From positions 24,056,001-24,120,000 of the forward strand of contig NC_135240.1 in NCBI RefSeq assembly GCF_947623445.1: a DNA stretch of 64,000 nt, written 5' to 3'. This DNA is from Clavelina lepadiformis. Its lineage: Eukaryota; Chordata; Ascidiacea; Aplousobranchia; Clavelinidae. Of the stretch, positions 20,161 through 56,121 are shown in pieces. Made by a program: the position numbers and the translations under genes. How positions within the stretch are numbered: position 1 is the first letter of the stretch; each line of letters opens with the position of its first letter. The notes beneath the pieces are model-generated. The model had not been told where the DNA came from, made no database searches, and worked only from the letters and a program-made list of their open reading frames with translations.

Positions 20161-21201
20161 TTTTGGGATCAAATTTTGCCAAAGAGTTATTCTACAACTA
20201 CCATACTAGGTCTATATGATATAACATGGAATAAATGTCTACACACAGTAACTTACAAACTCATCTATGGAAGAGTTAAAACGGATGGTGAAAAATAAAA
20301 AAGGATACATTTAGAGAGTAAAAACCTCTTATTCCATCATAGGATGCAGAATTGCCGACAACGCTAGGTATGAACGCTACAGGCCTAGTTATGTCTGAGA
20401 CTGAGCGTCTGTGTGTAGGCTATAGGCCTACACAGTGAGTCTGTGCCTGAGTAATTACCAGCCTGTATAAATCTAGAGTCTAGACTATGCTTGTAGCGCC
20501 CACAATCATAAATAGTGTAAACAACACGGATAGACCTAGTAAGAAAGTTGCAGCTTAATCTAATTAAGATGCAAACTCAAAACTTGGTGAATTCCTGGTT
20601 ATATAGGTTGAATAAACTAACAAAGCCTAATTTGTTATTATATTGAGTCACGTGCTCAAATTGTTTGCAGTGCTTTTCTTAAACATGAATAGCCCAATGT
20701 GATTTGTTTTCACAACTTTTTTTTGCCGAAACAGTCGTTAAGTTAAGTTAAAAACTTTCATATAGTGTAAAAATTAAAGCTTTCTAAAATTTTTAAAAAC
20801 ATAAATTTAATAAACAAAGTACTAGCTGTTCAAAGTAAAGGTAATGTTTTGATGTTTTGTTTCGTATTTTAAGTTTGACGTCATAATTAGAGCATAATGG
20901 TTTTCTGATTAATGTTTTTCTTACAAATAAAACTATTCAAAGGCTTTTAAAGAATTCCAGGTTAGTAACACCTGGGTTTTTGCTGAACTGAAACGAATAA
21001 AAATTATTAAAATCTGAGGTTATGCTGTTATTATCTTTCATCAAATTATATGTACTGCACTAAAGCAGGAAATTTGACTAACTAACTAACTTTAACTGAA
21101 ATGGTAACAGGCTTACTACTGTAAACACGTCTTTTTCTCGGATGATTAGAAAAGAAAAGTTGAGATGTAAATTTACACAGTTTGAATTTCTTGATTTCCA
21201 G
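20161..21201. other. Divergent promoter region of WDSUB1 and the mosaic protease gene
   Basis: About 1 kb separates the WDSUB1 start codon (minus) from the first recognisable exon of the protease gene (plus). I see no coding sequence. The protease exon follows a good acceptor (TTGATTTCCAG, ending at 21201), so an untranslated upstream exon or spliced-leader trans-splicing, known in ascidians, is possible. Confidence 0.45.
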
Positions 21202-21215
21202 AAGAAATAACATGC

Positions 21216-24200
21216 ATGTCGGGAAATAGCTATGACGAAATGTCGGATACCGATCAAGTCTCAAAAATGCAAGAAAGCAGCGAAGGTAAAACAATCGTAC
21301 ATCATACCGTAGTGGCTTATAGTTAACAATGTTATTGTTACAAATGAAATGATGGCAACACGGTTAGAAATTACATCACTGAGTGGTCTGTTTTCCGGTA
21401 GAGATTATTTGCATAAAGAATGTGTGAATCCTTGTCAGCAGCTTGTGGTAAAGAATTATGGTTAGACATACGTGTCAAAATTCACTTTATTCAGTGTGTA
21501 CGTAAATTGCGAACGCGTAAATATGATATTTTGCCTGGTGGAAAGGTTCATAAAAACGTGTTCTTAAATTGCATGCGCGCTAAACTATCGTGTAAAAAAC
21601 CTAGCTCTGTTGGCCGAACGGCATACGCAATTGTAAATTGTGAAGGCGTTCGTAATTTGTGAACATGTTCGTAATTCCTGTACGCGTTGACAAAAACACA
21701 CGTTCCCAAAATGTCAACACGATTGCACTTCACCAGCGTGTATAGGTGAGTTAATAGTGACCTGTATCGCCAACACAGCTAATTATATTTGCACGATAAT
21801 TCAGCGTGCATGCAATTTGTGAACTCGTATGTAATTTACCAACGCATTATTATGACGCTTTCGATCAGGTAAAAAATCAAACCTACGCGTTCGTAAATTG
21901 TGAACCCGTACGCAACTTGTGAATATGTTCGCAATTTACGAACGCGTTGAAAGAAGCGAGTTCTGACACATATGGCTAACCATAAAGAACAAGTTATACC
22001 CACTATGAAACACTCCTTTGCTTAAGTTAAGAAAACAAAATCATTCTCCAGTGACCAGTAACCTGTACGTTGTTCGTCACAGACGAAGATGCCGACTTTT
22101 ACTCAATACATACAACCTCTAAATTATCTACTTCGATCAGGGCAAGCATGCAGCTTGAAATCACGGATAGCGAATATAGCGATTTTGAAGGTTCTGTGAG
22201 ACCTGAAGTAACTATTTTCGTAGCATTTCATGGAAAAGTTTAACGTCAGTTAATTTGGCCTTTTTACCTCTCCACAGGTTTCGACAAATTTCTTGAAGAC
22301 GACAGGAGTATTGAAGACAATCCCAAAGATAACAGTGAAAATCTCGTCACAACCCAACCTTCTGATACTGATGAAAGAGTGATGGAGAAAAAACAAAGTA
22401 AACCTGTAGGGAAACTTTTTCCGGTAGTAATGTTTGGAACATGTACCGGCCAGTACGGCGATGTGTGTCAGTGTTACATCTGGTATCTAGAATGTTGGCT
22501 TACAACAGAGATTATTCGGGTAAACGCGGAAAATCAAGTCGTAATAAAGCCAGCGTAAAATCATACATCTACTGACCAAAGGTTGGCAGTCGGTACTTTG
22601 AAAGTATACCTCCAGTAACGGTACCGGTACTTGGCAAAAAATGTGCTGACGGTTCTGATATTCGGTACTGTTTCAAAAAAGTGGTTTGGTACTTTGCCGG
22701 TACTCGGTACTTTTTTTACAGCAGATCCTGTTGCAAATGAAACTTTTTCCGATGTTGTGATCTCGCTAAAGATTATTTCAGGTCAAAAATATGTAAACAC
22801 CCTCTTTAATAATAACAATTATGATAATAATATTCATATAGCGCCCTTATCCGATAAGAAAAATCGCTCTTAAGCGCTTAAACGATCACATATGAAATGC
22901 AGTAATAATCGCATATAAAACAAGACAGGTGATGAATGATGCATAAACAACAAGGCAGGAGCAATTATAAGTCATAAGCGCAAAAGCTGACGAAACAGCA
23001 TAATTTTCACAAAACAATACAGAAAACAGCAACTCACTCTTTGCGACTTTATTAAACATTTTTAGATTAAAAAAAGAAGAAAAAGCGCTAAAGTTGGCAC
23101 TATGAGTTATTAAAATAAAGTTTTAACAAACATATTTCTCAAAACCTTGAAGTAAATTAATTATTTTAAAAGTACCGAGTATTGGGACGAACTTCTTGTT
23201 AAAAGTAATTCGGTACAGAGATTCGGTACTTTTACAAAAAAGTATAAACCTACGGTATCGGCACTACAAAGTACCGCGGTAAAGTAATTGATACTATGGT
23301 AACGCGGTACTGCCGATTTCTGACTTAGTTATCATTGCACTGAGTCTGCCAGAATGAAATTGACCAAAAATTGAAAAATCGCAAAAAGAGCAGGAAAGAC
23401 TCTTCCTAGAAAAAAGTGCGGAACAGTTGTAGTTTTTGTTCGTAAACGAAAGTTAAGTTTTAAATGAATTAATTTTAAAAGTAAAATTTTCAGTGTCGAT
23501 TTCGATACCGTAGGTAAAGGCAGGAAATAGCCTTCGAAAAATAGCAGGCCTAAATCAAGTGCAGTAGCTTATCGACTATCGTAGTATAGGCCAGAGATTT
23601 ATAATACTGTATGACGTAGCCAGCGTCAAATCCGTTAAAGTATTTCATCGGAATTGGTATAAATTAAGTTTATATTCAAGAAAATAGCAGTATCATTTTA
23701 ATCTTGCCTTGGTTATGTTTCTTCTTTGTTTTTCAGAATGGCTTCCAATAATTCGAAAGAAAATACTTCGCAAAAATGTTCTTAAATCAGGTCAATCTGG
23801 TTCAAGGTCATCCAACGACCAATCAATATTACCGCAAGAAACCCCATCAGTAACACGACCTGAAATCATGGATCGAGATTTGAGAGGTACTTCGAGACCC
23901 GAAGTAACTATTTTTGCGTTTTTTTACGATAAAGTTAAATATGTCTTTTCAGATTCTAGCCAATTTCTTGAAAACGATACGAGTATCGAAGACCATGACA
24001 CAAATTCCACTACCAGTGAAGACCACGTCACGCCACAACCTACTGATACCGAAGAGGGAACAGTAGAGAACAAACAAAGTAAACTTGTAGGGAAACTTTA
24101 TCTAGTAAAGAAATGTTTAATTACAGTAAGACAGTATACCAGTGTGACATTTATTTCTAGTGGACTATCTACATAGGTGGGCAGTACCCCCGGTACCGAA

Positions 24201-27200
24201 TTACTGTTCCGCTGTACTTTTTCAGTACAGGTACTTCTGGAAAACATTACCGAATTTCTGTACCGAACTATACATGTTAAATAATTTTTAATACTAATTT
24301 TAGCATGTGTTGATCTTTTTTAATCTAATACATTTGCAAGCAATTAACATCACACATATGTTTTGACCTGGAGTAACCTTTACATGGAGCATAACTACAG
24401 TGAACAATGCATTTTCAGCAGCATATTTTACCCAAAAAGTACTGGTCCTGCAAGTACCGACCAAGTACCGAACTAGTTTTTTTAAATAGTACTCAATACC
24501 GGAAAATCGGTAGGCCTACATATTTTGCCAAGTAATGGTATTGTTACCGGCGGTACCGGTAATCAGTACTTTCAAAGTACCGATTGCCCACCTCTGGCTA
24601 TCTAGAATGTTGATTTATGCAAGGAAGGTTATAAGCCAGAAAATCAAAGTCGTAAAAAAGTCTATGTAGAAATAATTTCCTCTATACTAGACTCATCTCA
24701 GTAACTCATTGACACTGCCTGAAAAACTACCGGTAGCTTATAACTTTGCGAAGATTATGGCCGCAGACAGTTTTCCTAGATAAAGTAGGAAACAATTGTA
24801 TTTGGTTTGTGATAATATTGTGATAATAACCAAAATTAATATACAGATTATGTAGGATTTACAATTCTAATACTAATGTGTTGTTTTAGCAAAGAGTAAC
24901 ACGAGCCACAATCATTTCCTGTATTATTGTTGTGACGTAATATTTGTGCCTTTCTTGCACGCGTTCAGTTTGTCGAAAATAAGTTTGTTAGCGTAAAGCA
25001 GTACGAATTAACAAGTCTGGGAATAATCAGCAATCAGTAATTTAATGCAGTTGAATATAGCTAAGCCAAAATGCTATTACATTAACTGTTGAAGGAAGTG
25101 CTGTTGATGTGCCAATGTTCTGTCAATTTGTAATCGTATAACGAAGAAACAATATAACCAGTTTATACAATCAACAAATTTGTGCAAACTACTGAACAGT
25201 ACAACTTAAGATAAGCTCAGTGTTAAGTCAGACAACTCTGCTTGTCGGCTTCACAAGACAATCAGCTTTTAGCTGAACAATCGAGTCTAGGATTGATTAA
25301 GCAAACAACGACCTTGAGGCTCATTATATCGAAGACAATAAACATTCAGACAATCAAAGATTGTATTGGAGTGATTGGTACAGTCAAGTTCAACAACAAT
25401 AACCAATCATTCCATTACAGGTTCTAGAAGCGTTTAAAATTTTATTGTCGATTCGACATTAAGTAAAATGGAATACATGTAACTATAAGTAACTCACAAC
25501 CTAAACAAAAATTATATAGGTTTAAACCAAATATCAAGGACTGTATATAAGACGGCATTTAAGTTATTAAGTAATAGGAATCCATATTATATCGTAGCCA
25601 GCACTAAATCTGTTAGTAACTCAATCGCAATTGTGTAAATTGGAAGTTGTTGTTCCAGCAATATTTTTTAACCTTGCTTTGTTATGTTACTTTTTATGTT
25701 ACTTACTATGTTACTTCTTTGGTTTTCAGAATGGCGTCCGGTAATTCAGAAGACGATACTTCGCAAAAATGTTCTTACATCAGGCCAATCTCGTTCAAGC
25801 TCATCGAACGACCAATCGATATTACCCAAAGAAATCCCATCGGTTACACAACCTGAAATCGTGGATAGCGATTCGGGAGGTACTGTCGGACCTGAAGTCT
25901 TTTTTAAGTTTTTTGCGATAAAATTGGATGTCAGGTAATTTTGCCTCTGTTACTTTTATACAAATTTAGAAAACTTTCTTGAAAACGACACGAGTGTAGA
26001 AGACCATCACACAAATTCCACTACCAGTGAAGACCACGTCACGCCGCAACCTACTGATACGGATGAGGGAGCAGTAGAAAACAAACGAAGTAATTTTGTA
26101 GTGAGAATTTCTCCGGTAAAAATGTTTCAAACATGTACCGCTACTGCAATGTGTATTAGTTTTGCATCTACCTCTGGCTGGCTCATAATGAAGATTATTC
26201 GACAAACGCCGGAACGTCTTAATTGTGATAAGGTCAATGTGGTTTTCAGGACAGTTTTGATATTCAGAATCGCGTCCGATAATTCAGAAGAAGATACTTG
26301 TCATAAACGCTTTTAAATCAGGTCAATCTAATTCAAGTTCATCGAACAACGAGTCGATATTATCCAATCAGACCCTAACAATTAAAATTGAGTATCCAGT
26401 AAAGACGATGCTGACAATCTTTGCATTCTGCGGTTTTCTGACGGGCATTCTGATACTACTTGTCGGAGCAATGTGTGAGTGATATCGTTATAGGCTACTC
26501 TGAACTTTAACAAAGACTACACGTTTTTCACCATTCATTTATGGCATTTCACAGTCGTGCTTGAAGATCCTAAGCAGGCTAGCCTGCGTGCACAGATGGA
26601 ATATATTGAAAACGAAGTCGATTTAACTCTATTTAGGGGCGCTGTTCGAATTCAGTCCATAAAAGGACAAGCGGTTTCCTGGAATAGCACAGTCAAAATA
26701 TCTGACCTAAAAGAAGTCATTTCAGCGGTATAATTGTATTTCTTTAAAAAGAAACAAATAAACTTGGTAATTTAACGATAAGTTACTATATATGCTCCCG
26801 AAGACGGAAAGAGGGAAAATATGCTTTATGAAAATTCGTTAACTATTATTTATATGAAGTTAAACGCGGCCGTTTTAGATTCGAGGAGGATTTGAAGCGG
26901 AAGGTTTTTCAATTGCGTCCGTGGAATTTTTCCAACTTTCACCCGTTAACGTAACTGTCTATTCTTACTTAAACCACACTGTCACTTCATTAAACGCCCC
27001 AAAGTCGACAACAAACAACACTTTAAAAGTTAGTTTGTATCTTACTCGTTCATCATGTTGATAAATATACCCACGTTTCTTGATTGACAGATTGATTTTA
27101 CAGGCCAATGGGTGGCGCATGATCGTGCGGGCTACGCTTGAATGCACTGGGAAACCTTCAAAAAATGCAATCGGCCTAAGAGTGGGAGCGGTCGAAATTG

Positions 27201-30200
27201 GAATGATTCAGTTTATGTTAGACAACTATTTGGCTAACCAACGAATAGTAGCTCGAATGGAGGCAATCGAAGGTTAGCTTGTCAATATTTTAAACTAGTT
27301 TAAAGCGGAAACTGCTGGACGCGAGCAGCCAAACATCTCGCTCATAACTTTTTCCTGTTTGGAAAGTCTCTGCTTACTATATTCTTGTGTTAATACAAAA
27401 GCACAGCATGACGTATTATTACTATTCTATTAACTTTGCAGTTTCAGATGAGTTTAAAGAAGGTCTGAAAGTTGCACTAAGAGCCGTGCCGCGTCTCGCC
27501 AACATTAAAGTAGAAGAAAACCAGGATAGTAAGTTCAAGTCTCTTAGACCTATAGCTTGCTTGCGCTTTGAGACTATGATTTGCCAAAAAAACTTTTCTT
27601 TTTTCCACAGCCATCTTCATTGCATGTCACAAGAAAGGTGCAGACATGCCCCTGTCAAACATTTTAGTTCGATGTCCGCCAGACTGTCACGAGGCTAAAG
27701 TTTCCGAGATTATTGGCACCCATTCCTATCACATCCAATCCTCAGTCTGCCTAGCAGCCACCCATAATCACGTGATACAAGTAATTGCATTGGTTGTCAA
27801 ATAAGAACGCTCTGGATAGTGGAAATTGACCAATGTATTTCACCTGTCCTATAGCCCAGTGCATTTCAGTACAGCGCAGTTTAAAATCGTAGTGAATTGG
27901 AAGAATGGTCCTTTTATTTAGGCCATGCTTGGTGTTAAACTTAATCAAGCGTAATAAATTATTCAATATATGCCGTCCTCATAAAAGCTTTTGGCCCAGT
28001 AAAACGTTTCGGTTGGACATAACTGGGCTAAATCTTTGGCGTTATTTTCAAAGCTTCAAAACGGCGGAGTGGTGGAATACCTTGAAAGTGGAACCGGCTT
28101 TGTCTTTGAAGGGATTCCTTCAAACGGTGTCAACTCAACAAGCAGAGAAGAATTCAGCCGCCAATTTATAGTTAAAAGTAAAGTTCCTGTTTTTGCTATT
28201 CAGCTTTACAAGAGATACCATATAGTTGCATGTGAGACATGACGTTTTTAAAGCCAGCAAAACCAGGATCCACACAAAAACATTTTGTCGGCTTATACTA
28301 CATTTGTTTTAGTTAACTTAGTTCTTTCACTCGCTCTCACACTGGGCTAAGTTATCCTGGCGAGAATCTTTCTGTGCTGGATCTAGCTCGTAAGGTAGAA
28401 AATCATTAATTTTTTTATTTTTGGCGGCCGTAATTTCAGCTAAACATTTTCTTCATAGAACCAGGGTCCTCCTGGGCTATCCCGGACCCAACTGTAACTC
28501 CTACCACGACATTGAAACCGCTTCAGGAACCAACGCTAATTTTAATGGAAAGTGAGCATAGAGACACATGAATATCATATAATTTTAACAAAAAATATTT
28601 TGACGTTATCTTGTCCTGACTTCTGTATAGTTGCTTTCATGTTACTGGAATTGGATGGACAAAAAGTAAGCTTTTCCATGCTCACAGTAAGACATGTGAA
28701 CAACCTTGTTGTGGAAGCAATAACAATAAAAGTAAGTTTGCTTTTCTCTAACAATAGGCTGCACTGCCATGTTTTGTCGTGGGCTCCACCACTCAGGTTA
28801 AATCCTTTCTTATTTATTTACTCGTTGTATTCAAAGTTCAAAGCAGCTTTGCAAGCAATTGGTTTTGATATTGTCTTGATAAAAGTGGCTAACTTGTCGC
28901 CCTCTCTGCTCAATGTTGCCTCCGTAAAAGTCAAGTTGCATGTCTACGGGGGATTTATGGCCAACGCCTGGGTAGGTTTGGTATAAGTGGTAACGTTCAA
29001 TCGAAAGACTCGGAACTACTCACAATCTGCTTGTTAGTATAGGCAATGTTCCCTTACAAACCGTGGAAAAACGCTGACGTTGATCGCTTGGAGGAAAAAG
29101 TAACGGAATTTCTTGGTCGAATTCACACTGTGGACTTCGAAATTAAACGTAGATAAAGTATCCTGTTTGTAAAGAGTTAATAAAGGACGAGTGACAGGCT
29201 GACAGCGATTTTACAGCTTTGTTTGTGCTTTGCAGTGAACCTAAACTTTGTGAGTCAACTTGAAATTACTCCAAGTACGACACAAGCTCCAATAACAAAG
29301 TATACTTCAAAATGCGGGTACGCTACGTGAAGTCTTGTTTTATTACTGGATAGGTCTAAAAGTTAATAGCATACTACCGTTTCTTTTCGTAATTAAAAAT
29401 AGTTAAATAGTAAATAATTTTTGCAACGTAGATGCGGAGATGTTTTCTTCATACAAATTAATGATTCTCCTGAAAAGACAAAAATCCTTTCCATCTACAA
29501 ATCATTGTTAAACGCCTTTACATTTGACCAGGTTGGAAAAAGTTTAAGTTAAGCAGCACGTTGCACGTTTAAGCTATATCGTCATCTAGATCTTTTAACT
29601 CATAACATTTCAGACAAGCATCATAGCTTAAATAAACCTAGACACATTGCTCAAATTTCTGAAACACAGGCGAGACTGCAGTGCGTTCCACTGCAGGTTA
29701 CGCAGACAACAACGAGCTCTACGTTATTAACTTGATATTTTATCTAAATATTTGACAAGTTTTAAATGCCTTGTAAAACGCGTTAATTTTATAGCCATAA
29801 GCATAAACTGTTGGAAGCAGAAACCTATGCAAGTCATCAAAGTAGTTTACCATAAAATAGACATCTTTGTTATTTTGCAAAATTTTTCTGCTTGAAGAAG
29901 TTCGGTTAAAGTTTGTTGAGTTATAAAAAGCTGTCTGACGTAAAACGTGTTTTTCAGTTAGAACTTGGCTTGGGCTTAGCTCTAGATGGAACCATCATCA
30001 CAAGAGTTGGACAAGATTTAGCAAAGGAAACGTTGAGGAGACTCGAAGAGGAACTGAACTTGCCAGAGCGTAACGAAATAAGCCTTTGGCGCCTCCTCGT
30101 GGTAGGACTTTTAAACATTTTTATAGAGCAGTAACTTCAAACACTTGTCGTTCTATGTATTCGCTTGCAGGATCTTGAGTCCGAGTCATCGTTTTTAATG

Positions 30201-32695
30201 CAAGGAATCGGAAAGAGGAAAAAACTTTTAATAATTTCGTCATCTTATGTATTTGGTGCGGATGCCAAAAATATCGAAATTTATCTCAATCGGATAAAAG
30301 ATAGAGGCGTATCAATTGCCTACGTGGGATATGAATGGGATCAGAAGTTACTTCAAGCGTCAGTTACTGCCCATGTTTTGCTAAAATATACCTAGTTCTG
30401 CAACTGACGTCTTGCATTTAGTCGCTTTTATTTGACAATACGTTAATCAAATTAATTCATGCTCTCTATGACAGGGTATATTACCCATTAAAGTTCGCGT
30501 CCAAACCATCTTCTGATTTCGTCTTCCACGTTGACAACTTAAATTACTTTAATCGGTTAGCAAAGTTTATGGGCAACGTTATCAGGTACCATCACATACA
30601 CTTTTCGTTTATAAGGTTTAAATATTTTGTCTTTTTAACTTTTAAATGTGACTTATACAGAACTATATTTTGTTTACCATTCAACTCAAGTGCTAAGTGC
30701 TTGGGTGATTTTTTTTATATGAACTTTACGAGTTTCGGTTATTTTTACGCATTCTATATGATCATGTTTATTTGATGTTTATTATGTATAAGGCGGTATG
30801 TGTGCGAGTCACCGCCAACAACATGCGAAGATCTACATTTTGCCATTCCACCGCCAAGTATGTAATTTTCTTAACTGTCTGTAAAACTCCGGATTTTTTG
30901 CTGGTGAAACACCTTTACTAGGCTTTAGCTCTTACCTTAAACATAGCCTGAGCGATTTACGTTTATTGGCATTGATGAAGCTACATATCTTGTTATCCCC
31001 AGTAAACATGCAATACAATTTTTCCGTGGATGGCTCCCGAAACAGTTATACCAAAGGAATCCCAGTCGGCACTGGGCTCAAAGAATACACCTCTGAAGCA
31101 GGTGATAACTTGTCTCGATACGATTTATGCTCCCTAATAAGTTTAAATGAATTGGATATCACCAGAATTTTTGTATTTCCAGGCTCCTCTTATAACGGAG
31201 TTGATCTGCCGGCGACCCAAACTTTCCGCAAAACAGAACCCGACAAAGATCAGGCTTTTTATCGGCGAGATCGATGTGGACAGCAAGCTAATCAACCCTC
31301 CTTTCCATCCGGTCGAATCGTTGGTAAAACTATGACGCAATAGTCAACGCAAGTATTATACGTCATTCAAAGCATGTTTTTGTTGCAGGTGGCTCGGAAG
31401 CTTTGCCTCATTCTTGGCCATGGGCAATCAGCATTAATTACGTAAAGATGCAAAACGGGCGGTACAATTATAACTTCTGGAAATGCGGAGGGTCAGTTAT
31501 TGACAAAAGGTGGATATTAACCGCAGCCCACTGCTTCGCTAATGGAAATACGCTGGAGTGAGTACAAAATAAGATTTACTAATATTGGAAACATCAATTT
31601 GGAAAGGACATACTTAGGACAACAATGTTAACATTGTTAATTAAAAACCTGAGAAGTGGTTTTATACTTTTGCTGGTTGTAGGAAAGAAAGCAAATATCA
31701 GGTAGCCATAGGAATTCACGACCAGAGAGATATGAACGGATTATACGGTAACATTTACAAGATTGATCGCATCGTCCACCATCCCCAATACGACGATTAT
31801 AGAAATAAGTTTGACATAGCTCTGCTTTACCTTGACGTACGTATAGGCTAATTACTGAATAATTACTTTATGTAAGTTTTTTAAATTACTTTATTAAATC
31901 ATGTTAACAGCAAAGCCCCGGTAAGGCTTGTTTTACAAATACATGTTCAATGCAGCGCGATATTCAATACCGTCGGGAGGTGGCGCCAGTGTGCCTTCCA
32001 AACGCAGACGTCATACCAGCAACCGCGAGAGAATGCTGGGTCGTCGGTTGGGGATATACCAGCAACTCGGGCAAGTTTTTTTTTGAGTTGCAAATAGCTA
32101 GAGCCTGACATAAGAATATTTTCGTTGATTTGCCGACTAAACCTACGAAATTTTATGCTATCGTTCATGCCGTTATATGCGGTTGTTTTTTTCATATATT
32201 TTATGCGGTGTTTCCTTTGAACGTGCAGCTGATACAGACCGCTATAAACTCAAGCAAGCCGTACAGCGCATTGAGAGCCCAACGAAATGTCAATCGGTCT
32301 ACAAGCGATATTATTACGATCCAAATTACAACTTGTGCTCGAAAAGGTCAACAACCAGCAACGTTAACATGCAGTGCAGGGTAAGAAATAAGTTTATTTA
32401 CACAACATCACCTGCAGACATCTGTTGTGTGCCTGCTAGTTTTTCAAATAGACTTAAGTCTATAAATATAACTAAATATTTGCCTATTACACAATAGGGG
32501 GACTCCGGTGGGCCACTGGTGTGCCGGGAAAATGGCAGGTGGGTGCAATACGGGATATCTAATTTTGGACCGAAAATGTGTGAGTCGGGTGGTGAGAGTG
32601 GATATTTTCTGGTTTCGTCTGCCATGCAGTGGATATGTTGTTACGTAAAATTATCGCCATGTACTTTCGTCAAATGCAATTACAGCGATATATGA
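21216..32695 (+). CDS. Type II membrane mosaic serine protease (LCCL, VWA-like, chymotrypsin fold)
   Basis: 29 exons, all phases consistent, predict 1,349 residues: 21216-21285, 22278-22397, 23737-23886, 23953-24078, 25730-25879, 25970-26089, 26268-26474, 26555-26727, 26879-27028, 27104-27272, 27442-27528, 27611-27780, 28054-28177, 28459-28551, 28631-28731, 28837-28971, 29043-29148, 29236-29317, 29432-29531, 29958-30101, 30171-30358, 30475-30585, 30793-30857, 31003-31323, 31389-31557, 31683-31836, 31956-32070, 32229-32380, 32498-32695. Order: acidic serine-rich cytoplasmic tail of repeated modules (1-290), membrane anchor FAFCGFLTGILILLVGAMFV, an unnamed domain, LCCL (VRCPPDCHEAKVSEIIGTHS, about 515-605), a second unnamed domain, VWA-like domain (about 777-960), linker, protease. 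Activation site SGR/IVGG with a linking CG cysteine; triad TAAHC, FDIALL, GDSGGP all present. Residue 189 is Met, so trypsin specificity is unlikely. Role unknown. The cytoplasmic module exons are the least certain part. Confidence 0.85.
21457..21984. mobile_element. Foldback element, copy 1
   Basis: The ends form inverted repeats: TATGGTTAGACATACGTGTC at the left and its near complement at the right. The interior consists of degenerate units of the type TTGTGAACCCGTACGCAA and TTCGCAATTTACGAACGCG in both orientations. Short AAGAA words flank both ends, a possible imperfect target duplication. A shorter, inverted relative lies at 40793-41070. It is in the first intron of the protease gene. Confidence 0.75.
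22154..22190 (+). pseudogene. Relic of module A exon
   Basis: This stretch, encoding LEITDSEYSDFE before a donor-like GAAG/GTTCTG, aligns with the 3' end of the two module A exons at 23737 and 25730 (PEIMDRDLRG, PEIVDSDSGG). The following intron also matches (CCTGAAGTAACTATTTT). The upstream part is not recognisable and no acceptor gives the right phase, so I read it as a decayed exon copy. Confidence 0.5.
22577..23322. mobile_element. Degenerate TACCGG-rich hAT-type element with internal insertion
   Basis: The left end CAAAGGTTGGCAGT and the complement of the right end, CAGAAATCGGCAGT, resemble the ends of the elements at 14454 and 24172; subterminal TACCGGTACTT words are shared. I see no target duplication. 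The middle (about 22800-23100) is unrelated sequence containing ATTCATATAGCGCCCTTATC, probably another repeat inserted later. Confidence 0.65.
24172..24596. mobile_element. TACCGG-rich hAT-type MITE
   Basis: A 425-bp element with ends CATAGGTGGGCA and TGCCCACCTCTG (complement CAGAGGTGGGCA). The 8-bp flanks ACTATCTA and GCTATCTA differ at one base. The body is dense in GGTACCGGTA and AAAGTACCG words. It lies between modules B2 and A2 of the protease gene and is missing from the parallel B1-A1 intron at the matching site. Confidence 0.88.
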
Positions 32696-32848: not shown

Positions 32849-35800
32849 TCATGATTCAGGCCGGGCAAACGCAAGTACGCTTCTGCTTGCGCGGCCCGCA
32901 AAGCCGGCCGTTAAACCTTGCGCGACTCCTTCGTTTTCGTGTGCGAATTTGGAGACCATGATGTCGTCTTTTGGTGCAGTTACATTTTGACCATTTACTC
33001 CATGTGGAGAGCAAGCAATTTCGAGCTAAAAATAGGAAGTAAAAAGTTTATGACTTCAAATGTTACCCTACACTTGCTTAGGTGAAACATAGTCGTCGGC
33101 AAGAAATTTAGCAAACTTTAAGAAACATTTAAAACACACTGACACTTTTGAAGGTGAAACACCCGTCCTTCACAGTTCATATTGTCTGCTTTGCCTAAGC
33201 ACTTACGACACTTAAGCGTCGCGGGTTTGCAGCGTTTCCTTTGAGCTAGCTGGGGAACCTCACACGCAGAAAGGGGCGCAAAAGGTGAACGTAGAAGCTG
33301 GCGTGTTCTCGTTGCCACGCCTCGTCTTCCGCATGTCACTGAGCAAGATCCCCATGGTTGCCATGACGACACTTCACAGATTTCGGACCTCGAAGTATCT
33401 TTTAAAGATTAGCTAATTCTTATAATTGTCAATTTAATGTTATTTCGTTAGTGAGATTATAATAGTCATAAAAGAGTAGTTCGCAAACGGTTTAAATTTG
33501 TGTTCTTAAGTCCTACTTGTGCCTCTACTGCACTCGGTCGAGCTACAGTTCCTCCGTTCCATCATAAACGGTTTACAATATCTGTCTGGTGGCGCGATCT
33601 TTAGAGCTCTGTCAGTCAAACCAAAAAGTAGGTAGGTTACCAAAAGCGAGGCAGCTATAGCGATTTATTACAGCCAGTATAACGTTCTCACCTTTTTCGG
33701 AAAGTCTCACAAGTTGAGCTGCATGGCATCCACTGCGTCCACTCAGTGTATGTGCACTGCGTGGCCACCGGCGAAACGTCACACGACACCATGCATCGAT
33801 TTTTCTCCATCTCAAATTCTAAGCAGTTTTCGGCGCTGACTGTTCGATTGAGGAACCTTTTTCGCAGTGTCTCACCTGCAGTGTTAATATAATAGAATTG
33901 AAATAAATTTCCTTGTCAATACGTATATAATTTAGAGTTTCATTTGCTGTACCACAGCACTATAGACAAAGCACAACACTGCAGAGAAGGCGTTGATAAA
34001 TTCTTCTGGTTTCCAGCAATTAAAATTGCCTATATGCGTCCTATGTGTAACTAGGAACATTATATCAATTGCTTGGAACCTTTTCCACAGGTCACTGAGC
34101 ATGGCATCCAAGCGCTCCACGGGAGAAACGTGCAATCACTAATTTGTTGAACGTCACAAGGACCATTGTGACAAGCAGATCGTTGCATGACAAATCCTTG
34201 ACAGGCGTTTCCGTCACTTGAACCTGTAACAAAGATGCCATGACTTATCCTTCGTTTCTAACGAAACTTGGCGTATAATTACACTGTGTGGCTATAAACG
34301 CTCTATGAGTTTAATATGGGAGTGCAGTATGTCCTAAAAATAATATTTGGGTAAATTTACTTAAAAAAAACTCAGGCTAATTCTGGTGTACCTATCAAAA
34401 ATTTTTTTCGCAAGGTAGAGCCCACACCACAAGATTCAGAACACGGCATCCATTCAGACCAGTCACCGTACTGGCAGCTTTCCACGCAAGACGACGACGT
34501 CATGCATTTACTATTTTCCATTTGGAAGCCCTTACAAGTCGACGAAGCGGCGCTTCTAAGTAGGACTCTTTTCCGGAAAGTCTGACCCGGTCCGCAAGTT
34601 ACCGGACAGTGTGTCCAGTCCGACCAAGGCGAATACTGGCAACCACGCATCTCCACTGTCTCTATGGGTAAGCAAGAGAGAAGAATCAGTTGCTGTTGAT
34701 GGAAGAAAAATGTTAGGTTTATGCCTCCATGATGACGTCATACCTTCATCACAAAGCATTGACCTCAGGCATTGAGTTGTTTGCGTCATCGGTTCCGAGC
34801 AGTTTCCGTTGTCGCTTTCAATCGACCTTTTAATAAATCACTTGCAACTTTGTATATTTTGATTTTATTTAAATTGAAGTTTTTTTAAATAGCAACAAGT
34901 GGTCTTCCCAATTTTACCTTTTCCGTATTGTTTGGCCAAAACCACACGTGACTGGACATGGCATCCATTCCGACCATTTTGAATAACTGCAGCCGCATGG
35001 GGGCAGGTTGCACTTCAACATTTCTAAAAATGAATGGAAGAACGTGTTCTGCTTTTTGTGTATGAAAACTCTACAAGTTGTACTGAAAAGTAAGCCAGGA
35101 AATTAACAAAAATCGCAAAAGCTTTACCTTTTAAAGGGTCGTGGCAGTTTCGCTCCTCTGATGGCCATTTAAGCAAACGGGTCCTGATTCTAAGAGAGGC
35201 GCCACAAGTGAGGCCACAAGCTGACCACGTTGTCCAATCTACAAAAGCCTCCGATAGATTGATGAATCTACGCTGTTCAAAAATTTAAAAGATCTATAGA
35301 AAGTGACGTCACCAACCTGAATAGAGACATATCGTTGCGTCATTGCCGCCTTCACACTCGTCACTGCCCTGGCATATCTCTTTCTCCATTGACGCCTCGC
35401 AGGGACTCGAATCCGGTTGAAATTTTACCATCCTCGTTCGGATCTAATACGTGTTTAACGGTAAACTAAGCGCTCGTGTCAACAACAATGCCATACCAGC
35501 CCCTCTTTCTTACTTTGATTCCCCAGCCACAGGTCACTCCACACTCAGACCAATTACTCCATTCCGCGTACATACATGGCTGAGGTACGGCGTTGCCCGA
35601 ACTTATAGGCGTTACAATGACGTCAGCATTATCTTCAGGCACCATTTCGCTGTCTCCACACTGATCGTCCTGCAAAATATGGAGTATTTCTTGTGATGTC
35701 GATGTTTTCAAAATTCCGTTGGTATACGGAGTAATGGAGATACTGATACTGCGGCCATACGGAGATACTGAGTCTCCGAATGACGATCCTTGCCACTGGA

Positions 35801-38006
35801 GGAATGTGACTGCTATTCTGATTGAAAAAGGGCGAGTGAGGATGATCGGAGGTAGTGAGAGGTCTGATTGGTTCGTGGGGATCGGTCGGAGAGTTGGGGG
35901 ACATGTAACTGACCCCGTTGTCAGTTCCTGCGTCCCATGGGACCAGGTCGTAGCTTCAAGAAAAATTTGTTTGTTGTTAGCATAATAGCAAAAAGTATAG
36001 AAAAATTTCAAGATAATTATTTGAAAACGATTTTTCAGTTACCGCCATTTAACCCAGGCGGTACGATTATGTGATAAGATATCTATCGTATATGATATTT
36101 CATCATTGTGCAACTTATTCTAACCGTCTTTCCCCTGCCCAACCGCAAGACTCTGTACACATGGTTTCTTTGGTTATTCCAACATTCCAGTCAGGGCTCG
36201 GTCCAAGCATCGTAAGCGCGGTCACCAGATGTCTTTCTTGGTCAACACCAAACTCATCCGATGGCGGTTCACGTCTACAAATGGATCACGCATATCATAC
36301 TTTTGTTAAAACCAGGCTGTATACAAACATTGATTTTACAGCTACATCAATGACCCATACAAACCAGTTTGTATTCCTTACATATTTCTTGGTTCATATG
36401 CGGGCCATTGCGCCTTGGTTTTAATGACCGACAAAACGTCGTCAGTGTGGGCCCGAATTTCACTTTCAACGTTACCGACCCATCCCCATTCGGCCACTTT
36501 CTGGACACCGTCACTTGCATAGCCGCCGTATTCCCAGATTATGTAGTTGCCAGAATGAGAAGCACCAACGATGTTGGACCAATGAGTGGAATAAGCTGAG
36601 AAGAGCATTCTTAACTGTTGAGTTTAAGCTTACCTAAGCAGAACTTACCAAATTATTCAAACTAAATTTTGAAGATATTTTAACGACTTGTAAGTTCCAG
36701 ATATTTTCTAACTTTCTTACGAGGATAATCTATTGGGTGTGACTGCGGTGACCAAAGTCCATAAAACGTCATTCTGTATCTAGCGGTACCACATGCGCAA
36801 CACCCTGTAGTGTTTGGTGCTAAAGATGCTGTGGTCTGATTTCTTACACAAATGTTGAAAGTAAGTCCGCCCTTGCCCTTAAACCATATTGGACCTGGAC
36901 AATAACATGACACAAAAATTTGATCTCAGTATATCTTTAAGTTTCCAAACCTTACAAGTTAAGATTGAAGTCGGGACAGAAAGTAAAAGTGAAATGCTAC
37001 GGATGTTGTGCATAATTCCTTACTGACAAAAATTAACAACAAAGATATTTATAATGCAGAAATAAATTAAATACATTTGTGTGCACAAATTTTGCACAGC
37101 ATATCGTTATGTGTTGGTCAACTTCACAGACGTAAGGGAAGAGACATTATTCATTTAAAATTTTAAACTATACGTTTCATCATCAAAATCATCCTTTTAA
37201 AAATTACACATGTAGAACCAAAACATAGAAATTACCTTTCTGAATTACACTTCCAATAATTTGTACGCAACCACCAACTGACGCCCTCCAACGAACTTGC
37301 ACCCGGCTTTTTTTACCGTTGGTCACGTGAGTAGCGACATTGGGGCATCCCCGTTTCACTTGCGCCATATATTTGTTGACAACCTTCAACGTGCAGCAGT
37401 TTATGCGGAGATTACGAATTGAAACACAAACCTAAAGACAACGATATTTTCTCACTCACTGCAAATGAGCCAGCAGCCTGGTTGTCTGTTGCAACCGCTT
37501 TCAACGCGAATCCTCGAAAAGATATTTGACCTGTGCTCTGAAGCGTAACTGGAGAAGATAGAAATCATGCTAACACAAAATTAACGGAGCTAAACGTAAT
37601 GCCATTTTAATTTATAAATGCTGTATAAAGCTTCAGCAACGTAACATTCAAACATTTCCTTAAATTTTTAACACTTACCTGCACTCTACAAAAGTATGAC
37701 AGTAAGCTAAGCGAACTAATCAGTAGCAAACATAAACCGACGGATCGCTTGTATTTCAACAAAATTATAAATTGCAAGTAAAACATACTGACCGATGTAT
37801 TCTTGTTCTGGTTCAAAGCCTCTTTCGACGCCATCAATTTTTATTTGAAAACCATTATCTCCATTCCTTGGAGCTGAATAGTACTTGTTCGATGGATCTC
37901 CTTGGCAATTAAACTGGTCGCCAACTGTCCCAAGTTGGCCCTTGCTTATGGAGATGGTTGCAAAAAGACAGCAAACAAGGATATATGGAAAACATAGACT
38001 ACCCAT
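32849..38006 (-). CDS. SPON1: F-spondin-like matrix protein (Reeler, Spondin-N, eight TSP1)
   Basis: Secreted matrix protein of the F-spondin family. 18 exons: 38006-37793, 37548-37460, 37431-37236, 36894-36721, 36595-36382, 36274-36125, 35953-35761, 35669-35514, 35443-35317, 35238-35128, 35023-34918, 34826-34744, 34655-34392, 34223-34080, 33875-33692, 33608-33517, 33371-33136, 33025-32849; phases agree, 969 residues. Signal peptide (FPYILVCCLFATISISKG), Reeler (EPEQEYIVTLQSTGQISFRG, GCPNVATHVTNGKK), Spondin-N (CGTARYRMTFYGLWSPQSHP, HWSNIVGASHSGNYIIWEYG, DLVPWDAGTDNGVSY), then eight TSP1 units (SNWSECGVTC, TTWSACGLTC, SEWMPCPVTC, SDWTHCPVTC, SEWMPCSESC, SAWMPCSVTC, TQWMPCSSTC, QPWGSCSVTC). 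Vertebrate SPON1 has six. The end is a 59-residue exon without TSP1 character. The last donor (TGT/GTTTTA) is weak, so the C-terminus is less certain. Confidence 0.9.

Positions 38007-53788: not shown

Positions 53789-56121
<2,333 letters not shown>

Follow-up and report, generated by a model that had tools for sequence, protein, structure and literature searches.

A predicted type II transmembrane serine protease of the ascidian Clavelina lepadiformis whose stem combines LCCL and VWA-like parts

We analyzed a window of 64,000 nucleotides from the Clavelina lepadiformis genome (C1:24056001-24120000; the searched assembly comprises 209.06 Mb in 95 contigs). We found a chain of exons on the plus strand, from window position 21216 to 32695, whose product is most likely a type II transmembrane serine protease that has a stem of novel composition and is known here from the genome sequence of a single species. 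The chain was built by hand from three-frame translations and checked by script. It has 31 exons and 1,354 codons, and its frame is open to a single terminal stop (TGA, 32693-32695, plus strand). The initial annotation had described a phase-consistent chain of 29 exons and 1,349 codons; the consistent phasing was borne out, and the counts are corrected here.

Other genes were seen in the same window. An alpha-L-fucosidase exon lies on the minus strand at 577-939 (Pfam, 9.4e-31), and the adjoining frame at 953-1333 appears by eye to be more fucosidase. Sperm alpha-L-fucosidase has been implicated in ascidian fertilization (PMC9265791), and the nearness of this exon to the protease gene is probably a coincidence. 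Thrombospondin type 1 repeats occur on the minus strand at 34372-34737 (Pfam TSP_1, 1e-16), by eye within an apparent longer minus-strand gene at about 33200-36000 that is convergent with the protease gene. A Ras/Rho-type GTPase exon lies on the plus strand at 54898-55299 (Pfam Ras, 6.6e-24).

Of the 30 introns in the protease gene, 29 are GT-AG and one is GC-AG. The exception follows exon 29 (31956-32070, plus strand) and has a GCAAGT donor at 32071, inside the protease part. In our first model (1,369 codons), exon 29 began at 31911, which adds 15 residues within the protease. We rejected this start in favor of an in-frame acceptor at 31956, which removes the insertion. Leave-one-out scoring showed weak sites at the donors of exon 8 (-0.7) and exon 9 (-0.38) and at acceptor 7 (-0.45). 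By eye, the start ATG at 21216 lies 14 bases past an acceptor-like TTTCCAG ending at 21201, a position that would suit a trans-spliced tunicate mRNA, and an out-of-frame ATG lies four bases upstream of it. To score codon usage, we trained a model on 16 longest open reading frames from other loci of the same genome (4,417 codons from unverified genes). The chosen frame scored best in 28 of the 31 exons, all except exons 15, 24, and 30, and the score per codon was +0.17 over the exons and -0.36 to -0.42 over the introns. We treat this result as supportive and not independent because open frames guided the choice of exons and the training set consisted of longest frames.

Exons 1 to 7 (21216-21285, 22083-22190, 22278-22397, 23737-23886, 23953-24078, 25730-25879, and 25970-26089, plus strand) encode a predicted cytoplasmic N-terminal region, residues 1 to 281. 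This region contains an exon pair in repeated copies, namely, exons 3/5/7 and 4/6/8 (22278-26400). The closest copies are 92% (exon 5 versus 7) and 84% (exon 4 versus 6) identical at the DNA level. Exon 8 (26268-26474, plus strand) ends the cytoplasmic repeat with a partial copy and then encodes a transmembrane segment at residues ~329 to 351. In 19-residue hydropathy windows, this was the sole strongly hydrophobic segment (2.58; next-best window elsewhere, 1.56), in agreement with the single N-terminal membrane segment claimed previously. The predicted orientation would place the tail in the cytoplasm and the remainder of the protein outside the cell. When residues 1 to 350 were searched against the genome, all eight matches fell within the protease gene itself. 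The predicted cytoplasmic tail seems to have been lengthened by local duplication, and the repeated exon pair is a possible source of length isoforms. Repeats are also present in the introns of this gene.

Exon duplications with 84 to 92% identity in the closest copies, the intron repeats, and the few weak splice sites are features that a decaying or misassembled gene might show. We consider this very improbable, given 1,354 codons without a stop and an intact catalytic triad and set of cysteines. The published assembly, kaClaLepa1.1 (210.1 Mb, 102 scaffolds), also has a reported consensus QV of 67.4 (PMC10884593).

The stem begins with region A, residues 351 to 543, encoded by exons 9 to 12 (26555-27528, plus strand). 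An LCCL domain follows in exons 13 and 14 (27611-28177, plus strand), and exons 15 to 19 (28459-29317, plus strand) encode region B and then a spacer containing Thr and Pro. We found that the LCCL domain is well supported, as the initial annotation had proposed. When the complete first-model protein was scanned, Pfam PF03815 matched residues 555 to 634 with 50.6 bits (cut-off, 22.6; E 2.3e-13), and the domain also matched the solved cochlin LCCL structure 1jbi (E 1.2e-5). Its four conserved cysteines are C549, C565, C569, and C590. A genome-wide LCCL search recovered the domain at 6.4e-8. Exons 13 and 14 start and end in phase 1, as would be expected of a shuffled module.

Regions A and B are without a known family, and Pfam searches up to E 10 matched none. 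Against solved proteins, region A gave nothing up to E 10, and region B gave GCN4 constructs and a phosphoprotein only, at E 0.36 to 1.1. The two regions resemble each other. Their local alignment scored 54, which none of 2,000 shuffles equaled (top shuffle, 52), and exons 9 to 11 in region A and 16 to 18 in region B have in common the phase pattern 1-0, 0-0, 0-1. An apparent strand-helix pattern prompted us to consider both as SEA domains; we rejected this identity, as Pfam gave no SEA match. A genome-wide SEA search (14 of 14 candidates scored) returned 11 matches, none of them inside the protease gene.

Exons 20 to 24 (29432-30857, plus strand) encode residues ~813 to 1002, which the initial annotation called a VWA-like domain. 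What survived of this claim is a sub-threshold resemblance to the C-terminal half of the domain. Scanned in isolation, the region matched Pfam PF00092 with 15.5 bits (cut-off, 23.8; E 0.021) over its residues 102 to 168 of 192 and profile positions 104 to 167 of 174. In the whole-protein scan, VWA was unlisted, and it appeared only with the region scanned alone. A match above the cut-off, a metal site, and agreement from NCBIfam, PDB, and hhalign did not emerge. NCBIfam gave RuvX only (E 0.18), a PDB sequence search with the region gave four unrelated matches (E 0.72 to 1.1), and a genome-wide VWA search (150 of 321 candidates scored; at least 159 matches) listed none inside the protease gene. 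By eye, the MIDAS motif DxSxS is absent, and QINDS stands in its place; this motif is also missing from some true VWA domains.

We also built profiles from VWA open reading frames of the same genome. With 13 frames, one of them apparently in the wrong frame, the region scored 2.3 bits and the best shuffle 2.2. After cleaning (7 of the 13 kept, 6 dropped), the region scored 5.8 bits against 4.3 for the best shuffle and ranked first among the 621 sequences reported out of 1,003 given. hhalign with the cleaned seven-sequence profile returned a probability of 1.4% and an alignment out of register. Given the failed and marginal profile tests, the lack of a VWA match in NCBIfam and PDB, and the replaced metal motif, we call the region VWA-like and degenerate.

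These same results would also fit a wrong VWA label; the protein would then be an LCCL-bearing type II protease with several stem domains specific to its lineage, including one that simply looks like the C-terminal half of VWA. A control with one reversed and five shuffled copies gives a further point for mislabeling: an unrelated Pfam family was matched by one shuffle at E 0.23, only tenfold weaker than the VWA match. We regard mislabeling as doubtful, at perhaps one chance in four. The E value of 0.021 is already corrected for 24,736 Pfam models, and the match sits at the right place in the profile. Neither the reversed copy nor any of the shuffles yielded VWA. By eye, the N-terminal half (GDVFFIQINDS...) aligns with the start of VWA, and the region is flanked by cysteines at both ends. 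The VWA-like region lacks the metal site and is more likely a structural element or a metal-independent binding surface.

Exons 25 and 26 (31003-31323, plus strand) encode a linker, the propeptide cysteine C1077, and the activation site SGR(1090)/IVGG, which begins at residue 1088 and whose second IVGG glycine is completed in exon 27. The C-terminal S1 serine protease occupies exons 27 to 31 (31389-32695, plus strand). We found that the catalytic triad is intact (H1140, D1193, and S1292), and Pfam PF00089 matched with 146.2 bits (cut-off, 20.6; E 1.7e-42; first model, 1,369 codons). This upholds the earlier description of a complete H/D/S protease with an SGR/IVGG site. Among the best 60 of 546 solved-structure matches in PDB, again with the first model, TMPRSS2 chains came top, and enteropeptidase, plasma kallikrein, and plasminogen were also present. 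The cysteines for the five usual protease disulfides are present, including C1077 and C1213. We assigned the pairing by chymotrypsin numbering and presume that C1077 and C1213 are partners.

Trypsin-like specificity conferred by Asp189 is usual in vertebrate type II transmembrane serine proteases; it is a feature of specificity and not a requirement for the class. In the Clavelina protein, position 189 (NVNMQCRGDSGG) is Met1286, two residues before C191, and not Asp. The PDB alignment, given a one-residue insertion in the loop, instead places Asn1285 opposite Asp189 of TMPRSS2. Since neither alignment provides an Asp, the enzyme is predicted not to cleave after Arg or Lys and to be unable to cut its own Arg/Ile activation site. 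From its sequence, the predicted P1 preference should be non-basic and probably hydrophobic.

The protease exons might also belong to a gene of their own. There would then be a membrane LCCL/VWA-like protein ending after exon 24 and a secreted protease starting between 30858 and 31003, possibly in a tunicate operon. Consistently with this, an open frame at 30885-31343 crosses intron 24. It has an ATG in frame at 30975 (MKLHILLSPVNMQYNFS...), and another ATG follows at 31008, shortly past the exon-25 acceptor. If translation continued beyond exon 24, it would run two codons before a stop. Trans-splicing and operons do occur in tunicates (PMC7986045, PMC11155486). However, the N terminus from the ATG at 30975 would, by eye, be a short, weak signal peptide, and the splice sites of intron 24 are ordinary, with donor 24 ranking 19th and acceptor 25 ranking 14th of 30 in leave-one-out scores. 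Phase 1 is common to junctions 24/25, 25/26, and 26/27. A gap of ~110 bp would also remain here, unlike in the operons of Ciona, nearly all of which are gapless (median, 1 bp; an intercistronic gap in 44 of 1,172; PMC7986045). AATAAA and ATTAAA are absent from the gap, which says little because neither is found in the 700 bp after the gene's actual stop. Taken together, these data make a split at 30857/31003 unlikely, and we continue with a single gene.

Within the reach of our searches, the gene has a single copy. When residues 350 to 1089 were searched against the genome (13 of 13 candidates scored), 18 of the 19 matches lay inside the protease gene. The remaining match was an isolated 66-residue stretch on the minus strand at C3:8410502-8410708 (L074:4503-4688; genome E 0.008), with 38% identity to residues 788 to 852, spanning two exon junctions without introns. 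The stretch is a retrocopy fragment or a chance match. We considered it as a paralogue and rejected it, as the surrounding 30 kb shows no further convincing exon. Genome-wide searches gave 89 LCCL matches (98 of 98 candidates scored), mostly on contig C4, and at least 165 trypsin matches (150 of 388 candidates scored). By eye, none of the LCCL matches besides the one in the protease gene lay within 90 kb of the trypsin matches listed. Large clusters of LCCL exons were seen at C4:18.77-18.78 Mb and 21.20-21.35 Mb. One trypsin match (C1:28642406-28642936) lies within an open frame of 3,801 codons, which is unusual for a protease exon.

We give a probability of about 0.6 to the reading in which a single gene encodes a predicted type II transmembrane serine protease with an LCCL and VWA-like stem, a zymogen protease domain, and non-basic specificity. 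A bolder proposal, to which we give somewhat less than even odds, is that this aplousobranch ascidian has an anchored zymogen in which LCCL and VWA-type recognition modules are combined with a non-basic S1 protease, forming a receptor that converts recognition to cleavage and needs a second protease. Under the single-gene reading, the LCCL domain and the stem would bind a ligand (a matrix glycan, a microbial surface, or a gamete coat) and keep the enzyme on it. SGR/IVGG would be cleaved by another, trypsin-like protease, and the active chain would stay tethered via the C1077-C1213 disulfide. Because its P1 preference is predicted to be non-basic, the enzyme would work as a downstream effector, in contrast to a starter that activates itself.

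The role in recognition or defence suggested by the initial annotation is one that we only infer, and published ascidian work gives at least as much reason to propose a role in gamete interaction (PMC9265791). The protein could instead be a sperm- or egg-surface protease for fertilization, like HrTTSP-1 of Halocynthia. This type II sperm protease has EGF-like and ricin-B-lectin domains and binds HrVC70 of the egg coat, which provides a precedent (PMC9265791). A chymotrypsin-like sperm protease is also counted among the egg-coat lysins, and the predicted non-basic specificity would fit such an enzyme; its egg-side partner was not determined in that account (PMC9265791). Against this, comparison of our Pfam results with the published description of HrTTSP-1 gives no stem domain in common. 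We consider fertilization on the unlikely side, and we weigh it equally with defence because, of the ascidian precedents that we found, HrTTSP-1 comes closest in architecture.

If real, the predicted protease would be a new domain combination among membrane serine proteases, uniting modules that are otherwise known apart, in cochlin, factor B, and factor C. The class is known, and only the combination would be new; such domain shuffling is common in animal proteases, and the general picture would be unchanged. If the bolder proposal is true, this would be a protease that recognizes a ligand through its stem yet is unable to activate itself. As a single-copy gene in the searches made, it offers a test case for surface proteolysis in ascidian immunity or fertilization.

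The predicted protein shares with the type II transmembrane serine proteases TMPRSS2, enteropeptidase, matriptase, and HrTTSP-1 an N-terminal anchor, an extracellular stem, a C-terminal S1 zymogen, the R/IVGG site, and the propeptide cysteine. TMPRSS2 is the closest to it among the best 60 of 546 solved matches. Stems in this class are typically built from SEA, LDLRA, SRCR, and CUB domains, whereas the Clavelina stem combines LCCL with a VWA-like region; its N-terminal region is also ~328 residues long, and Asp189 is missing. The stem of HrTTSP-1 is described as EGF/ricin-B (PMC9265791), and the Clavelina protein has no such Pfam matches. No transmembrane serine protease with an LCCL domain was named in the titles and abstract openings of the open-licence papers listed in our literature searches.

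In complement factor B and C2, a VWA domain is followed by a serine protease domain. The Clavelina protein has its VWA-like region in the corresponding place before the protease and adds a normal IVGG site, an anchor, and LCCL. It has no Pfam match to the CCP/Sushi domain of factor B and C2, and no chain of either was among the best 60 of 546 solved matches. Limulus factor C is a secreted protein with LCCL and an S1 protease in one chain. Both are shared by the Clavelina protein, which differs in having a membrane anchor. The name LCCL traces partly to factor C (PMC514892, PMC11285972), which is described as carrying complement-like, EGF-like, and lectin-like domains (PMC514892). We found no Pfam match in the Clavelina protein to the CCP, EGF-like, or C-type lectin domains of factor C. 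Cochlin and vitrin are secreted non-enzymes in which LCCL is followed by intact VWA domains. In the Clavelina protein, LCCL is followed by one degenerate VWA-like region, and there are in addition an anchor and a protease.
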